NCBI GenBank assembly: GCA_001873115.1
Contig: MNYK01000075.1
Span: 1 to 34,678 of the forward strand
DNA: 34,678 nucleotides
Origin: Desulfobacterales bacterium CG2_30_60_27
GTDB taxonomy: Bacteria > Desulfobacterota > Desulfobulbia > Desulfobulbales > CG2-30-60-27
Direction: 5' to 3'
Positions 23,070-34,678 of the stretch are shown here, piece after piece. The notes beneath the pieces were generated by a model, which was given only the letters and a program-made list of their open reading frames with translations, was not told where the DNA came from and did not search any database. Each line of letters opens with the position of its first letter. Positions within the stretch are counted from its first letter, which is position 1. Made by a program: the position numbers and the translations under genes.

Positions 23070-24749
23070 ATGACCACCATCGCCACTTTGGGCCCCAAGG
23101 GTTCCCACGCCGAGACAGCCGCCCGCCAGTATGACGCCACGGCGGCAATCCACCTCTTTCCGGGCGTCTCCCAGGTCAAGGCGGCCTTCGAGCGCCAGGA
23201 GACCGAGCTGGCCGTGCTCCCGGTTTATAATACCAAGGAGGGTGAGAACAGGGAAAGTTTCCAGGCCATCGCCGACCTGCATCGTGGCACCTGGATCGAC
23301 AACCTGGTGCTGCCGGTCAGCCTCTCCCTGGGCGCCCTGGACGAACACCTGCCCCTGCGCTACCTGGTGGGCAGGGCCCAGATCCTCAGGCAGTGCGAGG
23401 AATACATCGCCAGCCACTTCCCCGAGGCCGCCCTGATCGCCACCGCGGACCTCGAAGGCTTTATCGCCGAAATCCAGGCGGGCGGCCGGCTGGATCACGG
23501 GGTCATCGAGGCCGAGGCCGCCCTCCTCGGCCACGGCTTCATCATCCGGGAACGGGAAGTGGCGCCCCACAACCGCACCCGCTATGCGGTGCTGGGGCCG
23601 ACCATGCCGCCCGTGAGCGGTTACGACGCCACCGCGGTGCTCACCGCCCCGCTGAAGGATCGAGTGGGCCTGCTGTTCGACATCCTGGGCGAATTCTCGG
23701 GGCGGGGCATCAGCCTCCAGGACCTGCGCACCACCTCGGACGTCAAGACCCAGAAACTCCGCTTCTACCTGGAAGTCGAGGGCCACAGCGAGGACCAGGA
23801 GGTCAAGGCGGCCCTGGAACGCATTGAACGGCATATCATCGGCGAGCCTGGCACTATAAAGGTGCTTGGCAGCTACCCGAGGGTAGACATCCGCACCAAG
23901 CTTATCGGCCACTGCGGCTTCATCGGCACCGGCGAGATGAGCCAATGGTTCGCCCGCCGCCTGGAAAACGAAGGGTACCGCACCATGCTCACCGGCCGCG
24001 GCACCGAGACGCGGCCCGAGGAGATGATCGCCGCGGTGGATGTGGTCTTCATCTGCGTGCCGATCAGCGGCACGGTGGCCACCATCGAGCAATACGGCCC
24101 GCTCATGCAGGACGGTCAGGCCCTCATTCTGCTGGCCGGCGAGGCCGAAACCACCCTGGCGGCGGCCATGGCCCACACCCGGCCTGGGGTTGAACTCATG
24201 CTGCTCCATAACCTTTGGGGCCCACAGGCCTCCACCATGAAAAACAAGAACGCCTCGGTGGTGCGCACCCCGCGCAGCGGCGCGCTGTGCAGTGAGTTCG
24301 AGGCCTTTCTCTACAAGCACGGGGCCGACATCCACCACGATGCCCCGGGCCAGCACGACCAGCTCATGGGCGTGGGCCAGAAGCTGCCCACCTCCATCTC
24401 CGTGGCCCTGGCCAAGACCCTGGCCGACAACCAGATCCCCACCGCGGCCATAGCCAGCCATGCCACCCTCACCTCGCTCTACGCCATCCTGGCCATGGCG
24501 CGGATCCATCGCCAGAGCCCGCGCACCTATGCCGAGATCATGGCCACCAAGGGCGCGGGCCGCAAGATCGTCCAGGACTTTGTCGCCAATCTGGCCGCCA
24601 TCATGGACCTGTCGGAGACTGGCGACATCCCGGGCCTCTGTGCCCTCATGGAGGCCAACCGCCAGTATCTGTCGGATCAGTTTCTGGAAAGCTGCATGAC
24701 CCAGTCCCTGGCCATGGATGAAACCCTGGGCCGGCTCATCAAGAGCTGA
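23070..24749 (+). CDS. Prephenate dehydratase-like + ACT + prephenate dehydrogenase-like fusion protein
   Basis: MTTIATLGPKGSHAETAARQY and HNRTRYAVLG (PDT-like), DRVGLLFDILGEFSGRGISLQDLRTT (ACT), IGHCGFIGTGEMSQWFARRLENEGY (TyrA-like NAD-binding). Start chosen at ATG 23070 with upstream GAGG; ATG 22992 is an in-frame alternative. Confidence 0.8.
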   Translation: MTTIATLGPKGSHAETAARQYDATAAIHLFPGVSQVKAAFERQETELAVLPVYNTKEGENRESFQAIADLHRGTWIDNLVLPVSLSLGALDEHLPLRYLVGRAQILRQCEEYIASHFPEAALIATADLEGFIAEIQAGGRLDHGVIEAEAALLGHGFIIREREVAPHNRTRYAVLGPTMPPVSGYDATAVLTAPLKDRVGLLFDILGEFSGRGISLQDLRTTSDVKTQKLRFYLEVEGHSEDQEVKAALERIERHIIGEPGTIKVLGSYPRVDIRTKLIGHCGFIGTGEMSQWFARRLENEGYRTMLTGRGTETRPEEMIAAVDVVFICVPISGTVATIEQYGPLMQDGQALILLAGEAETTLAAAMAHTRPGVELMLLHNLWGPQASTMKNKNASVVRTPRSGALCSEFEAFLYKHGADIHHDAPGQHDQLMGVGQKLPTSISVALAKTLADNQIPTAAIASHATLTSLYAILAMARIHRQSPRTYAEIMATKGAGRKIVQDFVANLAAIMDLSETGDIPGLCALMEANRQYLSDQFLESCMTQSLAMDETLGRLIKS

Positions 24750-27757: not shown

Positions 27758-29806
27758 TCATTCCACCATTGCTTTCAGCAAAGCGTCCCTGGCATCCAAA
27801 TAGAACTGAATGTCGATCTTGGTAGCCATGTCGTCGGAGAGGTCAAACAACTGGCGGCGGCACGCCACCGGCATCAGTAGGGCGGTCGCTCCTTTTTCAA
27901 CGGCGATCTCAGCAATGGACACCGGGTTGTGGACCGGTTCGATAGAGCCACCAAGGTTGATCTCACCAACGATAATGAGGCCACCTCGCACGCTCTTCTT
28001 CAAGAGTGAGGTGCAAAGAGCAACCAAAGAGGCCATCCCGAGTTTGGCCCCTGATTTGGATGCATCAAAGGCGCGGAGCTGGGCCGTGAACTCGTGGTGG
28101 CGGGGATCTTTGTCCCCCACCAGTTGCAGCGACCGGGCATAGAGGTTCTGTTCCGCAAAGCCCATGCTTTCCCTGAAAGCAGTAGGAACCGGTTTGTTGA
28201 GGATCTTCACGCCAGAGCCGGGGCCTTCGTTGATTTCGATGCGATAGAGGCCCGGGTGCTCTTCGCCACCGCCGGGGCTAATACTCCACACCTGACCAGG
28301 CTCCAGCGGATCGCCACCGATGCTGTTTTCACTTTGCAGTTCCGGGGTGGAGACAAACTTTTCGACTCCGTCCGTACCCATCACATAGCTAAAATGGGTA
28401 TTGCGAAACTCCGCCGCGCCGATGCGCTTTTGCTGTTCCTTAACCCGCCGGCGAGCTTCCAGGGCGATCCTCACCGCCCATTCCAGATCTTCTTCGGGGA
28501 TGTCATTAGCGGTGCCAGGGTGCATCAGCTTGATCAGCCCGCTGACAGTCTTGTTCACCGCATTGGTATCACGGCCGGAAAGGGCGCCACCAAAGAACAC
28601 TCTGTTCTGCAGCAGACTGATTCGGCTCTGGTTGCGTGATTGACTCCAGCATTCCGACAGAAAATCGCTGACCAGGCCAAAATGGTTGGTGAGCAGTTCC
28701 TTGCTGATCTTAGGTACATCCCAGCCGGGGAGAAAGGCATGAATCCGATCCATGAAGGCGGTATCATCGCGCATTTCCGGGGGCATCGGTCCCAGCAGGT
28801 GGCCGATGCGTTGTTGATGCTCGACATCGACATCGAAATTGCCGATCAGGACAATACTGCCGTCGGCGCGAATACTTTCCTTGCCCCGGCTGAACTCGCC
28901 AGACTCCATATAGCCCTTCATGATGTTTACACCGTCCTTCTGGTCGAAGGAGACCCCGGAGACCTCATCGAAGCAGACCACGTCATACTGGCAGACCAGT
29001 CCCCGCTGGCCCGTCGAGTTATTGACAAACATCCTGGCCACCGTGGCCTTACCGCCTGAAATCAGGTGGGCGTAAGGTGAAACCTGCTGGAAAAGATGGC
29101 TCTTGCCAGTCCCCCTGGGACCAAGTTCCACCAAGTTGTAGTTGCGCTCAACGAAGGGAACCATGCGCAGCAACAAGGCATTTTTCTGCCGTTCGGTCAA
29201 CCCCGCCGGCTCAATACCAATGGAACGCAGGAGAAAATCCTTCCACTCCTCGGAACTGAAACTTTTTCTGGCCTCGGCCAGGATATCCAGGACGTCCCGC
29301 TTGGAAAGCTGGATCTCCCGCAGGGAATGCACTCCGAAAGGCCGGCCGTTCTTCTCTTGGGCAATGATGGAATCATAGGCCAGAGAGATCTCGGCGTAAA
29401 AGCCGCCGGTCAGCATTCTCTCATGCTTGCTGACCAGTTCCGCCTCAATGCGGGCATCGGTCAGACGAAGGCTGGGGATGGTAGCCAGATATGAATCGGT
29501 CTTGGCATCGAGACGAGCGGTGATCAGGTCGATAATTTTTACCGGCCCATTTTCCCTGGCGCGGGACTTGAAGAGCTCTTCATCGCCGGCCTTTACAGTC
29601 CTGTCCTGCAATTGCCTCTGAACAATTTCCAACCCTTCCGCAATCTCATCCTGGTCGGTGCTGGCGCAGTAGCGGCCCAACAGAAATTCCACCACATAGG
29701 TGGGGACCGGAAACTGGCGGCTGAAGGTCCGCACCAGATCTTTCCGGACCAGATACCCTTCCAGTGTCGAGGCTGCTTTTTGATCGATCTGATCCAGGGT
29801 GATCAT
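27758..29806 (-). CDS. brxL: BREX system Lon-like AAA+ protein BrxL
   Basis: Walker A GPRGTGKSHLF, DEVSGVSF, GSIVLIGNFDVDVEHQQRIGHLLGPMPPEMRDDTAFMDRIHAFLPGWDVPKI; Lon-like C-terminal domain; adjacent to pglZ. Confidence 0.93.
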   Translation of the reverse strand: MITLDQIDQKAASTLEGYLVRKDLVRTFSRQFPVPTYVVEFLLGRYCASTDQDEIAEGLEIVQRQLQDRTVKAGDEELFKSRARENGPVKIIDLITARLDAKTDSYLATIPSLRLTDARIEAELVSKHERMLTGGFYAEISLAYDSIIAQEKNGRPFGVHSLREIQLSKRDVLDILAEARKSFSSEEWKDFLLRSIGIEPAGLTERQKNALLLRMVPFVERNYNLVELGPRGTGKSHLFQQVSPYAHLISGGKATVARMFVNNSTGQRGLVCQYDVVCFDEVSGVSFDQKDGVNIMKGYMESGEFSRGKESIRADGSIVLIGNFDVDVEHQQRIGHLLGPMPPEMRDDTAFMDRIHAFLPGWDVPKISKELLTNHFGLVSDFLSECWSQSRNQSRISLLQNRVFFGGALSGRDTNAVNKTVSGLIKLMHPGTANDIPEEDLEWAVRIALEARRRVKEQQKRIGAAEFRNTHFSYVMGTDGVEKFVSTPELQSENSIGGDPLEPGQVWSISPGGGEEHPGLYRIEINEGPGSGVKILNKPVPTAFRESMGFAEQNLYARSLQLVGDKDPRHHEFTAQLRAFDASKSGAKLGMASLVALCTSLLKKSVRGGLIIVGEINLGGSIEPVHNPVSIAEIAVEKGATALLMPVACRRQLFDLSDDMATKIDIQFYLDARDALLKAMVE

Positions 29807-32172
29807 TCGATACCTCCACCAATCATTGTATTCGCTTGGGCCACCAAGCCGCCGTTGTCATCAACCACGACCAGGGTGGCCTCTTGGCCCAGCAGATCCT
29901 CGTCTTCCACTACCACCGAGGCAGTCCCGTGACCCTTCAGAGCCTTTGCTTTCTTGCCCAAGAGAACACTGGACTTGGCATCGCCAGCCTGCATGCGGAG
30001 GTCTATCGCCAATCCTGAAGAATCGCCTTCCACCGCGACCGAGCAGCGCAAGCCCTTCCAGACTACATCGGTGATTTCCACCAGGGCCAACGATCCCGCC
30101 CCGACTGTGCCGGTGACCGTAAGTTCGAGGGTCAGACATTCCTGCAGGCTCAAACCGCCATGGGCATACTCTTCACCCCTCCTGAAACAACTCACCCCAT
30201 CAGCCAGGGCGAAGTGCAGGTCCGGATTCCAGTACCAGGGGTACATTTTTTCCTCTGTTGTGGCGCCCGATTTGAGCGCGGCACAGCGTCCCCATTTGCT
30301 ATCGGCCAGGCAGGCCGCCAATTCGGTTTTTGGCAAGCCGCCGGGCATCAACAACCAGCCGTGGTCAGTAACAACCCGGACGCCCTTCCAGCCCGCCGCC
30401 AGCAACGCTAGAATCCGTCCACTGATCTCCTCCAGCAATAGACCGAGGTGTCTGGCCAGTTTCCATCCTCGGTCATGTCCCTCATGATCGATATCACCGA
30501 ACTCACACCAGCCATGGCCATGGCCGGCACCGTTATCTCCCCGCTCAAGAAATTGCCAGCCCTTATCTACTATGGTTTTGCGCAGCAGATAGGCGGTAAT
30601 CGGCTCAAAATTGTAGCCGCCCGGCTCCTCGCTCACCTGGTTTGATCCCAGAATTGGCGCCACCGCCGGCTTGCCGGTCCCGGTAACGCTGGGCAGGGGT
30701 ACCCAACAGGGGCGCTCAGAGACGATACAACCCTTGTTCTCCAGCAGCGCCAGCAGCCGTTTGGCGGTATCAAAGCGGAGCCCGTCCACAAACAGGAGGC
30801 ATTCGCCTTCCTTGTATGGGGCGGCCTTCAAGGAAGCGAGCGTGCCCCCCGGATACGAACTATTGTGGACCACTTGCTGTAAGTGACGAGCCGACTCTTC
30901 AGCCCAGGGAAGATATACAGCCCGGATGGCTGTGGTGACTACTGCCAAATCAGCCTCTGTTTCCACTTCGGCCAGCGCTCTGATTACAGCATCATCGGCC
31001 CGCCAGCCGTTACCGCGATAGCCGGCGGCCAGGTCTTCGACAGTGCCGGCGGCAAGGCCATTCCTGGTAACCTCGGCCAGAATTGCCAGGTGACCCAAGG
31101 CCTTTGCCAAGGGGGCCTCGCCAAGTTCAGCCCAGACCAGGGAGCGGCGGTTGCCATGCTGCCGTTCCAAGGACAAGAGTCTTTCCCTGCTCTCGTGCAC
31201 AGGAACATCACGCAAGCCCTGAAGTTCCTTGTGAAGCATTTTCTCTTTGGCGTCGTTCCATTGCGGCCAGCCACCGTGGGTTATCTCGTTGGCAAAAAGA
31301 TTGGGTGGTGGCATGGAGCTTTGCCGGATGCGGGCCGGGATATTGGGATAGCGCCTGGGGGCTTCGCAAAAGCGCTCCCATATAGCTTTCCAAGGGCCTT
31401 CATGCATTGCCAGTCGGGCGGCGCCAGCCAGTACGCCATCATTTTGCGGGTCAAAGGCAAACTGCGATTTGCAGACCTCGACAAAGGCCGGCCACTCATT
31501 TTCACTGCGACCGGCTCGAAAAGCATCCCCCTGATCCAGCCATTGCAAGAGATCCCGTACCGGATCTCCCCCGGTCAGCAGGGTATTGAAGTAGTCCTTG
31601 TCAAGCCTTTTGCCGTTAAGAAGGACCACCTCTTCGTCCAGCAAAAGGTAGAGGGCCAATTGCATGGCATTCTTGGCGTCATTGTCCTGAGCCACATCGA
31701 GGCCCAGACCACCTTGGTCAGTCTTGAGAAAGGCCAGAATGGTCCAATCCTTGCCATTAAGCTGCGACCAGATCGCGCCACGATACTGCAACTCGGCCAG
31801 AGCTTTCAGATGCTCCGGGCATCCTTCCACCGCCCGCAGATCCTGCCGGCTTACTCCCGGCAGATAAAAAATTGGCGTGCGGTCAGAGGGCAGATCAACA
31901 CCCTTCGCTGCCCCAGCAATAACACAGCGCAACCAGATGGCCGGCCCGGTCCGCTTCTCCGGGGCATAATCGCCAAGAACCAATAGTTCGGGCATTTCCT
32001 CCTGCAAACGGGGGATCACCGCTTCCCATTGCCGGTCCTTGTCCGGCCAGAGGATACAGGCCGGGGCCACCTGCACGTCGGGGTTAAATACGGCGGCGTC
32101 TCGCACGGACTTGAGGAGATGGTTAATAACTCTCATTTTTAAGTCCATTTCTTTCGCAGTGCGTAACCACAT
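29803..32172 (-). CDS. pglZ: BREX-1 phosphatase-like protein PglZ (type B-like)
   Basis: Alkaline-phosphatase-superfamily motifs LLFVDGLRFDTAKRLLALLE and VRVVTDHGWLLMPGGLPK; PglZ-like N-terminus VINHLLKSVRDAAVFNPDVQVAPACILWPDKDRQWEAVIPRL. ATG 32148 is an alternative start. Confidence 0.92.
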   Translation of the reverse strand: MWLRTAKEMDLKMRVINHLLKSVRDAAVFNPDVQVAPACILWPDKDRQWEAVIPRLQEEMPELLVLGDYAPEKRTGPAIWLRCVIAGAAKGVDLPSDRTPIFYLPGVSRQDLRAVEGCPEHLKALAELQYRGAIWSQLNGKDWTILAFLKTDQGGLGLDVAQDNDAKNAMQLALYLLLDEEVVLLNGKRLDKDYFNTLLTGGDPVRDLLQWLDQGDAFRAGRSENEWPAFVEVCKSQFAFDPQNDGVLAGAARLAMHEGPWKAIWERFCEAPRRYPNIPARIRQSSMPPPNLFANEITHGGWPQWNDAKEKMLHKELQGLRDVPVHESRERLLSLERQHGNRRSLVWAELGEAPLAKALGHLAILAEVTRNGLAAGTVEDLAAGYRGNGWRADDAVIRALAEVETEADLAVVTTAIRAVYLPWAEESARHLQQVVHNSSYPGGTLASLKAAPYKEGECLLFVDGLRFDTAKRLLALLENKGCIVSERPCWVPLPSVTGTGKPAVAPILGSNQVSEEPGGYNFEPITAYLLRKTIVDKGWQFLERGDNGAGHGHGWCEFGDIDHEGHDRGWKLARHLGLLLEEISGRILALLAAGWKGVRVVTDHGWLLMPGGLPKTELAACLADSKWGRCAALKSGATTEEKMYPWYWNPDLHFALADGVSCFRRGEEYAHGGLSLQECLTLELTVTGTVGAGSLALVEITDVVWKGLRCSVAVEGDSSGLAIDLRMQAGDAKSSVLLGKKAKALKGHGTASVVVEDEDLLGQEATLVVVDDNGGLVAQANTMIGGGIE

Positions 32173-32229
32173 CCCCTCCGTAACATTTTTTTTGCACAGT
32201 AACTTTTCTGATGTTACTGATGCAGCATC
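32161..32229. promoter_or_regulatory. Candidate operator region upstream of pglZ
   Basis: Four GTAAC/GTTAC sites (32163-32167, 32180-32184, 32199-32203, 32213-32217), hairpin CAGTAAC-N9-GTTACTG (32197-32219) and palindrome GATGCAGCATC (32219-32229). Confidence 0.4.
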
Positions 32230-32327
32230 AATGGAGCCACTCGGGTAATGGCAGAAGATAAAAGGGCAAGTCCTGTACGGCGGGTTTTAATATTGGCTTT
32301 TTTGTCAACGGTGTTCCTCACGACGAT

Positions 32328-32885
32328 TCAGGCCAAGAGCGTTGCTATTCTAAGATTGAACTCGTGGCATGCTGCTGACAAGGACTCTGGTGCATCTTCG
32401 GAAAGCCCTGTCGTCTTGCACATTTTCAGCAATTTTTGAACTGCCGGTTTGCATAGGCGCTCTTTCTCCAGTTTCCGGTAAGTGTCCTTCTCGTTTACCG
32501 GATTGTCGGCCAGATAATGAATCCATGTTTCGATATTTCGTTTCGGAACGGCAATTGCCACTGCATCGTCGTCCCCTCGGAACTGAACTTGTTTCGCGTT
32601 GCATTCCGCTTCAAAGTCATTTATTCGATCTTGCACTTCTCTCTCATCGGCGTCGATCATCACGATTAATCCAGACGCCGCCCTCAATCTCCTTTGCCGA
32701 TAAACCTTGATTTCGCTGGGAAACTTTTCCCTTACCCACTGTTCAGCGGAACCCTTGGCCGAAGGGCTTTTTTCAACCCTCAACTCCCTGGTATTCCAAC
32801 CCATGCCTGCCAGAAATCGCCTTGTAAAGGCTTCTTGTTGGGAATCTTCGCAGAGGAGGACAATCTTTACCCGTCGCGAACTCAT
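32328..32885 (-). CDS. Small TOPRIM-like protein, candidate effector (AriB/AbiLii/RloB-like)
   Basis: TOPRIM-like pattern: KIVLLCEDSQQEAFTRRFL (conserved acidic) and SGLIVMIDADEREVQDRI (DxD); 4-bp overlap with the upstream ATPase gene. Confidence 0.65.
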   Translation of the reverse strand: MSSRRVKIVLLCEDSQQEAFTRRFLAGMGWNTRELRVEKSPSAKGSAEQWVREKFPSEIKVYRQRRLRAASGLIVMIDADEREVQDRINDFEAECNAKQVQFRGDDDAVAIAVPKRNIETWIHYLADNPVNEKDTYRKLEKERLCKPAVQKLLKMCKTTGLSEDAPESLSAACHEFNLRIATLLA

Positions 32886-33991
32886 TCAGTCCACCCCCTG
32901 GCGATTTGCCCGGAAAGACTCAAACCCTCCTCAACTCGTTCTGGCATTTTCTTTACACGGGTTGGTCCCAAGGGATCTCGCTCAATCCATTTACCACATT
33001 CCGGCCCGAGATAATCGATCAGTTCGGGATGATGGCTGATTATTACCGCCTGGGGAAAACCCTCTCCGCAGGCGTCATTCAGTGCCATGAGCCAAGGTTG
33101 AATTTCCGGCAGCGAGACGTAATTCTCCGGTTCGTCAAGAAAGACAGTGTGCCCAAGATCTTGAAGGCCGAGCAGAAGCGAGTAGAGGACAATCATGACT
33201 CGTTGCCCATCTGATATTTGCTCAAAATCGAAAAAGATTGGGGTAGTGCTTTGGTCAGCGCTGGTGAAACCGACTTTCAATATTTTATGCTTTCCGGCCT
33301 GCTCCAGTTTAAAGGCGTGAAAGCCTGGGATGGTAGCACGCAATTGTTCTGTCAACTGAAAGATCTTGTCCTGATGTTCCTGGGAGATGTATCTGTACCA
33401 GGAAGCGAAGTTGGTGCCATCGCGGTTGAGCCAGTCCGATTCTTCGTCGCTTTCGGAAATCATGGCCTTTGGCTGGAGGCTGACAACGAACAGCATCTCG
33501 ACCCACTTTTTGAACCAAGTCAGTTTTTTATTGTCCGGCCTCGGTATTATTGTGGCCAGGGCCGAAATGGACCAATCAAAGGAATAAACCGGGCCAGGCA
33601 CGTGATCATCGTGATAAAGGTTCACATAGCCTTGTTTGAACTCGAACAGTGGCTTGCCATTAAACAGGAGATGTTCGAGTTCAATACGCTCCTTCTTTAT
33701 ACCGGTGTTGTGAGAGATAACCAATTTGTAGGAAAACAGGCCATCTTCGCCCTGTACATCGAGTTCGAAGGACTGTTCAGTCTTGTTGACCCAGGCGGTG
33801 AGGTCTTCCGGTGGAAAAACTTCGCTGATTTTGATGTTGTCCACGATAAGGTGGCGAATCCTATAGATCAGATCGAAAAGGGTTGACTTGCCTCCACCAT
33901 TTGGCCCCATCAATAGGGTCAACTCGTTAAATTCCATCTCGAAGTTAACCAGGCAACGATAGTTGCTTGCATACAGTCTCTTGAGCATCAT
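32882..33991 (-). CDS. ABC/SMC-like AAA ATPase (AriA/OLD/RloA-like)
   Basis: Walker A LLMGPNGGGKSTLFDLIYRIR, signature-like FEQISDGQRVMIVLYSLLLGL, Walker B TVFLDEPENYVSLPEIQPWL, H-loop AVIISHHPELIDYLG. Confidence 0.85.
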   Translation of the reverse strand: MMLKRLYASNYRCLVNFEMEFNELTLLMGPNGGGKSTLFDLIYRIRHLIVDNIKISEVFPPEDLTAWVNKTEQSFELDVQGEDGLFSYKLVISHNTGIKKERIELEHLLFNGKPLFEFKQGYVNLYHDDHVPGPVYSFDWSISALATIIPRPDNKKLTWFKKWVEMLFVVSLQPKAMISESDEESDWLNRDGTNFASWYRYISQEHQDKIFQLTEQLRATIPGFHAFKLEQAGKHKILKVGFTSADQSTTPIFFDFEQISDGQRVMIVLYSLLLGLQDLGHTVFLDEPENYVSLPEIQPWLMALNDACGEGFPQAVIISHHPELIDYLGPECGKWIERDPLGPTRVKKMPERVEEGLSLSGQIARGWTE

Positions 33992-34678
33992 AGGCCTCCA
34001 TTGCCCTTTTGGGCCGCGAGTTTATCTTCAATTGTCAGGTGATGATCGTTAATCCGGTCGCCGTTGAAGAGGTGATACCAGGGTGCGGAATCCACGTCCT
34101 TGCCCCGGTCTTTTTCCCATTTGATGTTGGGTTTGTCGCGCAGGACGCCGGCGCCTTTCTTGGCTACGTCGGGCACGGAGAGGAAGGGGCGGATGTTGAG
34201 GCGGACGCCGTCGTTGAGATCGGGGTTCCAGCCGATGGGTTGTTGATCGATGGGTTTCCAGCGGACGAAGATGTCGTAGGGGGCCTCGCCTTCGAGGATC
34301 AGCTCCAGCTTCTTCTTGAGGCTTTCGGCGGCGGCGAGTTTTTCCTGGGCGCCGTCCACGCCGTTGCCGATGTCCTGCTTCTGGCGGCTGATCCAGTCAC
34401 CCAGGTAGGTGTAGATCAGGGTCTCCAGGAGTTTGTGGTCGAGCTTGTGGTAGTTGACCAGGGCGGCGAAGCCGTCGCGGAGGCCGTCCCAGATGTGCCA
34501 GATAAAGGGGCGGTGCTGGAAGAGTTTGCAGTGTTGGCTAAAGAACTTCTCCCGCAGCCAGGTTTCGAGGGGCTTGCCGGCATGGTCGGCTTGGGCCAGC
34601 AGTTCGGATTTCTTGGCGGCTGACCATTCGCTACCGTAGGCCGCAGCCAACAGGTTTCCCAAGCGGTCGGCAGCGCCT
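33988..34678 (-). CDS. pglX: BREX-1 adenine-specific DNA methyltransferase PglX, C-terminal part (truncated by window edge)
   Basis: Reading frame open to the window end. HCKLFQHRPFIWHIWDGLRDGFAALVNYHKLDHKLLETLIYTYLGDWI and LNDGVRLNIRPFL...GAGVLRDKPNIKWEKDRGKD are PglX C-terminus-like. Confidence 0.88.
   Translation of the reverse strand, partial: GAADRLGNLLAAAYGSEWSAAKKSELLAQADHAGKPLETWLREKFFSQHCKLFQHRPFIWHIWDGLRDGFAALVNYHKLDHKLLETLIYTYLGDWISRQKQDIGNGVDGAQEKLAAAESLKKKLELILEGEAPYDIFVRWKPIDQQPIGWNPDLNDGVRLNIRPFLSVPDVAKKGAGVLRDKPNIKWEKDRGKDVDSAPWYHLFNGDRINDHHLTIEDKLAAQKGNGGL

Follow-up and report, generated by a model that had tools for sequence, protein, structure and literature searches.

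A prephenate dehydratase-like, ACT and TyrA-like fusion protein of the Desulfobulbales, a probable tyrosine-branch dehydrogenase with rebuilt active sites

The stretch of DNA analysed here, which we call the window, comprises 34,678 nucleotides of contig MNYK01000075.1 from Desulfobacterales bacterium CG2_30_60_27 (order Desulfobulbales in GTDB). On its + strand, an ATG at 23070 and a stop at 24749 delimit a gene whose 559-aa product joins a prephenate dehydratase (PDT)-like domain, an ACT domain and a TyrA-like half. Pfam places PDT at aa 4-177 (E 1e-22, 81.3 bits against a cut-off of 25.2), ACT at aa 196-253 (E 3e-8) and PDH_C at aa 426-528 (E 2.1e-8, above cut-off), and finds no chorismate mutase domain (CM_2) in the protein. 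PDH_N stays below threshold (16.7 bits against 26.5), and every match to the NCBIfam TyrA and PheA models lies far under its cut-off. An earlier note, made from the sequence alone, had described a single ORF with PDT-like, ACT and TyrA-like parts and without chorismate mutase; Pfam and the coordinates agree with that description, and the motifs it listed are all present (PVYNTKEG at aa 51-58, NRTRY at 168-172, DLRTTSDV at 218-225 and LHNLWGP at 379-385). The features of the gene are these:

23070..24749, + strand: PDT-like/ACT/TyrA-like fusion gene including the stop; 559 aa, start conserved in relatives
23070..23603, + strand: PDT-like domain, aa 1-178 (Pfam PDT, 1e-22; fold match to 2qmx, 3mwb and 6vh5)
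23220..23243, + strand: PVYNTKEG, with E159 of E. coli PheA replaced by Tyr and N160 kept (alignment of 75 proteins)
23367..23396, + strand: VGRAQILRQC, aa 100-109, with PheA S208-H209 lost and Q215 kept (alignment of 75 proteins)
23571..23585, + strand: NRTRY, a TRF-type motif with T278 and R279 kept (alignment of 75 proteins)
23619..23894, + strand: ACT domain, aa 184-275 (Pfam ACT, 3e-8)
23721..23744, + strand: DLRTTSDV, replacing the ESRP effector motif (alignment; order consensus D[LM]RSEND)
23904..24338, + strand: TyrA-like nucleotide-binding domain, aa 279-423, with GFIGTGEM (NCBIfam PRK08655.1-3, 1.3e-27, under its cut-off; fold match to 2pv7, TM 0.82)
23991..23999, + strand: TGR following the second strand; R310 is invariant, and a preference for NADP is predicted (G309 and R310 in 75 of 75; on the model of Arg31 in Synechocystis TyrA)
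24129..24149, + strand: LLAGEAE in place of D-L-x-S-x-K, the catalytic Ser becoming Gly357 (Gly in 75 of 75)
24204..24224, + strand: LHNLWGP in place of HPMFGP, with His380 kept, Pro changed to Asn and Phe to Trp (75 of 75)
24345..24743, + strand: TyrA-like helical dimerisation domain (PDH_C), keeping H429-D430, R478, Q482 and Y487 (Pfam PDH_C; alignment)

Position 23070 is the likely start of a frame that is open upstream as far as 22638, where an in-frame ATG is also present, because translation starts at the equivalent ATG in all 16 relatives first found and because about 95 upstream bases are nearly identical in the closest relative, L005. A scan for promoters and terminators found none. 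The gene's neighbours in the window encode a PilZ/cNMP protein, a DUF445 protein and a glycosyltransferase, those in relatives are zinc-ribbon, SH3 or FtsJ genes, and no aromatic-pathway gene lies beside the fusion in the window or in the relatives' loci.

The predicted structure supports the domain assignments. The AlphaFold model, built with 74 aligned sequences (mean pLDDT 89.3, pTM 0.56), consists of two well-formed halves whose placement relative to each other is uncertain. In a Foldseek search of the PDB, the prephenate dehydratases 3mwb, 2qmx and 6vh5 came out on top, followed by H. influenzae TyrA (2pv7, TM 0.82 by target) and then other TyrAs, and a sequence profile search made the same assignments. 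The comparison of a model with known structures, which the earlier note had proposed, thus yields a fit to PDT over one half and to TyrA over the other, and the latter has both parts of the TyrA family fold, a Rossmann domain and the helical PDH_C domain. The fold of the fusion protein is ordinary; what is unusual is its architecture and the invariant loss of one TyrA catalytic residue.

We compared active-site positions with E. coli PheA and TyrA (from NC_000913) and counted residues in 75 distinct fusion proteins. Mutagenesis of the E. coli P-protein reportedly identified four catalytic PDT positions, N160, S208, Q215 and T278, and the fusion protein of the window keeps three of them and has lost S208. 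The equivalents of N160 and Q215 (N54 and Q108) are present in 75 of 75 proteins, that of T278 (T170) in 74 and that of R279 (R171) in 75, and the residue that follows this Thr-Arg pair is Phe in 49 and Tyr in 26. At the S208 position the 75 proteins have Gly, Ser or Ala (Gly in the window), H209 is lost, and the E159 position is Tyr, Phe or His throughout. Because N54, Q108 and T170 are in the top 11 of about 180 PDT-domain columns by conservation, the pocket of this half is evidently still used for something. In the ACT domain, the GAL and ESRP motifs for phenylalanine binding are replaced by a GLL-type motif and D[LM]RSEND, and since the ESRP effector motif is lost order-wide, altered feedback control by this domain is plausible.

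The TyrA-like half retains the equivalents of the catalytic H197 (H380), H245 (H429) and R294 (R478) in each of the 75 proteins and that of D246 (D430) in 71, and those of Q298 (Q482) and Y303 (Y487) are invariant or nearly so. The S176 position is Gly357 in all 75, and K178 is lost; other changes relative to E. coli are P198 to Asn, F200 to Trp, R256 to Pro, H257 to Thr or Ser, P283 to Leu and Y285 to Ser. The replacement of D-L-x-S-x-K by LLAGEAE is a larger change than those in the motifs of the earlier note, which did not mention it. Its alignment is firm, being free of gaps from the VPI motif to the site in TyrAs of sister orders, and the seven free-standing TyrAs aligned from other orders of the phylum all keep Ser, Lys and HPLFG. 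The study of H. influenzae TyrA, from whose structure we take the roles of the His, Arg, Ser and Gln residues, describes Ser179, His200 and Arg297 as conserved across all kingdoms, and the S126A substitution in the A. aeolicus enzyme lowers kcat 15-fold and raises Km tenfold (PMC2954222). The invariant G309-R310 suggests use of NADP+ by this half, by analogy with Arg31 of the Synechocystis arogenate dehydrogenase (PMC2954222). Preference for arogenate or prephenate has been related to a residue designated '222' (PMC5681985), whose equivalent, matched by motif, may be the non-acidic Gln482.

This architecture is a property of an order rather than of one genome. An initial search with short window-specific peptides, covering 84,980 genomes, returned 16 relatives; the informatively named ones belong to Desulfobulbales families, and the remainder bear vague names such as Deltaproteobacteria bacterium. 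The sensitive profile was applied to this phylum only: among 247 genomes, it gave full-length matches (883-997 bits) only within the Desulfobulbales, and the best match outside the order (135 bits) covered one half only. Within the phylum, as sampled, the fusion is confined to this order. PDH_C is found in 138 of 146 Desulfobulbales genomes, exactly once in each, and apart from a few cases the open frame measures about 560 aa or longer; of the shorter frames checked, one (G077) is a frameshifted copy and another (G094) meets a contig end. PDT occurs in 144 of the 146 genomes, mostly in two copies, the fusion and a canonical AroQ-PheA, and most genomes of the order carry the latter. Three genomes without canonical PDT (G003, G084 and G086) were considered as proof of a working PDT half and set aside, as chorismate mutase is absent there too and an assembly gap is equally likely. 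Separately, some genomes of the order hold extra PDT homologues outside both AroQ-PheA and the fusion (L099-L103), one of which, L100, is very divergent and has no SH motif.

A PDH_N search of 97 genomes of the order gave three matches above cut-off, two of them fusions and the third a canonical free-standing TyrA with DTCSVK and HPMFGP in genome G110 (L156:1366-2130). That genome has no fusion, no PDH_C match and no PDT match. It looks like a case in which one TyrA has replaced another, with contamination possible because the flank of the gene was found in none of four congeners.

The 75 proteins are diverse, nearly all full length and of one architecture. Their mean pairwise identity is lowest in the PDT part, at 45%, and reaches 63% across linker and ACT and 64% across the TyrA part. 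Between close pairs, dN/dS is 0.04-0.27 for PDT, 0-0.10 for ACT and 0.04-0.17 for TyrA; all three parts are under purifying selection, which is weakest on the PDT part. In trees, each half forms a single, fully supported clade on a long stem (2.1 changes per site for the PDT half and 3.4 for the TyrA half). Judged from these trees, each half underwent extensive change before the radiation of the order and has stayed constant since; the stems are too long for a donor of either half to be named. An assembly fusion or a frameshift, which the earlier note had named as grounds for dropping its reading, or a pseudogene, is refuted to near certainty by this conservation across independent assemblies of the sampled genera. 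The one observation in its favour is the G077 copy (L050, on a single contig), which is frameshifted near codon 140 in the PDT half with the ACT and TyrA parts open, and which may reflect either an error in sequencing or genuine loss of the PDT half.

The gene content of the window's own genome, a 2.5-Mb assembly estimated at 93% completeness, bears on function. Its one further PDT belongs to a canonical AroQ-PheA, encoded on contig 77, that carries PVENSIEG, SHSQP, TTRF and ESRP and is also the genome's sole CM_2 match. Its single PDH_C match is the fusion, PDH_N has no match at E 0.001 or better, and phenylalanine hydroxylase, an enzyme that requires oxygen (PMC7311316), was not found in it. 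Thus the fusion is not needed for phenylalanine, since a canonical AroQ-PheA is encoded in the same genome, and the tyrosine branch depends on it, since the genome has neither another TyrA nor the hydroxylase. The suggestion of a bifunctional Phe/Tyr enzyme therefore has support in its tyrosine part but little in its phenylalanine part. Likewise, of the separate canonical pheA and tyrA that were to count against that suggestion, pheA is present and a canonical tyrA is not.

By elimination, the fusion is probably the tyrosine-branch dehydrogenase. Cultured members of the order grow autotrophically: Desulfocapsa sulfexigens shows autotrophic and diazotrophic growth (PMC3739170), and strict chemolithoautotrophy is described for Desulfolithobacter dissulfuricans (PMC9751629). 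Such organisms must make their own tyrosine, and no other recognisable TyrA is at hand, so the fusion is the most likely dehydrogenase. Our best explanation goes further, and we hold it about as readily as we would doubt it: the fusion would be the TyrA of the Desulfobulbales carrying a PDT-ACT sensor derived from a dehydratase. AroQ-PheA, encoded elsewhere, would supply prephenate and also feed the phenylalanine branch. The TyrA half would commit prephenate to the tyrosine branch through an oxidative decarboxylation that depends on NAD(P)+ (NADP+ being the probable cofactor), using His380 with its H429-D430 partner for catalysis and Arg478, Gln482 and Tyr487 to hold the substrate, in a pocket presumably rebuilt so that the usual Ser is dispensable. 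The PDT half, of dehydratase origin and retaining part of the substrate pocket (Asn54, Gln108, Thr170 and Arg171), is probably no longer mainly a dehydratase; with the ACT domain it may sense a prephenate-like or aromatic ligand and so set TyrA activity. The data themselves establish the architecture, its conservation throughout the order, the lack of a second TyrA, the residues kept and lost, purifying selection on each part and a fold in two parts; we infer the TyrA activity, the preference for NADP and prephenate and, most of all, that the PDT half acts as a sensor.

Several observations pull against parts of this explanation. The neighbouring genes give no hint of aromatic amino acid synthesis, and it is uncertain whether the TyrA half acts on prephenate, because the catalytic Ser is Gly in 75 of 75 proteins and the TyrA stem is very long. 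For the PDT half, a role as ligand-binding control module together with the ACT domain has about an even chance of being right. AroQ-PheA already covers phenylalanine in most genomes, and throughout the order the equivalents of E159 and S208 are gone, whereas those of N160, Q215 and T278 are highly conserved. The survival of three of four known catalytic positions would suit an active dehydratase too, and that role, though doubtful, comes next. Both halves would then be catalytic in a truly bifunctional branch-point enzyme, with prephenate (or arogenate) dehydrated by the PDT half, dehydrogenation carried out by the TyrA half and control divided between them by the altered ACT domain. Such an enzyme would account for the near-invariance of the pocket Asn, Gln, Thr and Arg in a domain of only 45% mean identity, and the change at position 159 weighs less when canonical PDTs themselves, as aligned, have E, D or R there. 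This reading is nevertheless tentative: S208 is lost, the Glu159 change is common to all fusions, a second dehydratase is unnecessary where most genomes of the order have a separate AroQ-PheA, and an extra dehydratase joined to a competing dehydrogenase makes little metabolic sense.

It is less likely again that the fusion is not a tyrosine enzyme at all, both halves having been retuned to another cyclohexadienyl or aromatic substrate with tyrosine made by an unrecognised enzyme. The long stems of both halves would fit such retuning, as would the alteration in every member of the catalytic Ser, the following Lys and several substrate-pocket positions, but autotrophic lineages have no TyrA homologue other than the fusion, and the one genome with a canonical free-standing TyrA, possible contamination aside, is a genome that lacks the fusion. 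A two-step route to tyrosine would explain the fusion, the joint rebuilding of both sites and the Ser-less TyrA half together: the PDT-like half would carry out a non-aromatising step on prephenate, such as decarboxylation, and the TyrA half would then oxidise the product to 4-hydroxyphenylpyruvate. PDT relatives with such chemistry exist, the BacA-type proteins being reported to carry out a non-aromatising decarboxylation. If this were so, decarboxylation and hydride transfer, which are concerted in known TyrAs, would become separate. We consider this route most improbable, as the Thr used in dehydration is retained and the whole reaction is normally done by TyrA alone.

The PDT-ACT-TyrA arrangement also differs from the described systems compared with it. 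Known fusion partners of TyrA are AroQ, AroF, HisHb, ACT and REG (Song et al., PMC1173090), and the order PDT-ACT-TyrA without a mutase is not among the known TyrA fusions compared. The four-domain TyrA-AroQ-PheA-ACT of Archaeoglobus (PMC1173090), also found in Ca. Huberarchaea in a 2024 archaeal survey (PMC11237513), likewise has TyrA, PDT and ACT in one chain, but, by its description rather than by alignment, it has the opposite domain order and contains chorismate mutase, whereas the Desulfobulbales fusion has no mutase, coexists with an AroQ-PheA encoded separately in its genome and is altered in both active sites. The enteric AroQ-TyrA of E. coli and H. influenzae (2pv7), the best solved match of the TyrA half, shares with it the His, the His-Asp pair, R294, Q298 and Y303; the fusion differs in having no mutase, in S176 to Gly and the loss of K178, and in its pocket changes. 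AroQ-PheA (P-protein) and stand-alone PDT-ACT proteins share the fold of aa 1-275 together with N160, Q215, T278 and R279, whereas the fusion has E159 to Tyr, S208 to Gly, no ESRP and an appended TyrA. In Bacillus and Xanthomonas, ACT control of TyrA is also seen, but with a C-terminal ACT domain (PMC1173090), while that of the fusion precedes TyrA and is accompanied by a PDT domain. In the open-access literature searched, we found no description of a PDT-ACT-TyrA fusion.

The Desulfobulbales are environmentally important sulfate reducers and sulfur disproportionators, and their tyrosine synthesis appears to rest on one enzyme. Standard profiles barely recognise it, and because the PDH_N profile fails, automatic pathway calls may falsely report a tyrosine gap. 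Lacking the near-universal catalytic Ser, the fusion is a natural test of how much of its active site a TyrA needs. A dehydratase-derived module on an enzyme of the competing branch may also be a case of a pathway enzyme turned sensor of its sister branch.

Two further observations concern the surroundings of the gene. Downstream of the fusion, some members of the order encode a conserved protein of about 220-250 aa (L014:7961-8620, L019:7933-8595, L008:8006-8758 and L017:6611-7267); Pfam, run on three of these four, matches a C-terminal zinc ribbon in each. On the - strand of the window, 27758-34662 holds a partial BREX defence locus with BrxL (4.5e-301), PglZ (1053 bits) and, at the window edge, the C-terminal end of PglX; between PglX and PglZ lie a 185-aa ORF without PADLOC matches and a 369-aa AAA ATPase that is HEC-01A/PDC-M25A/AbiLi-like.
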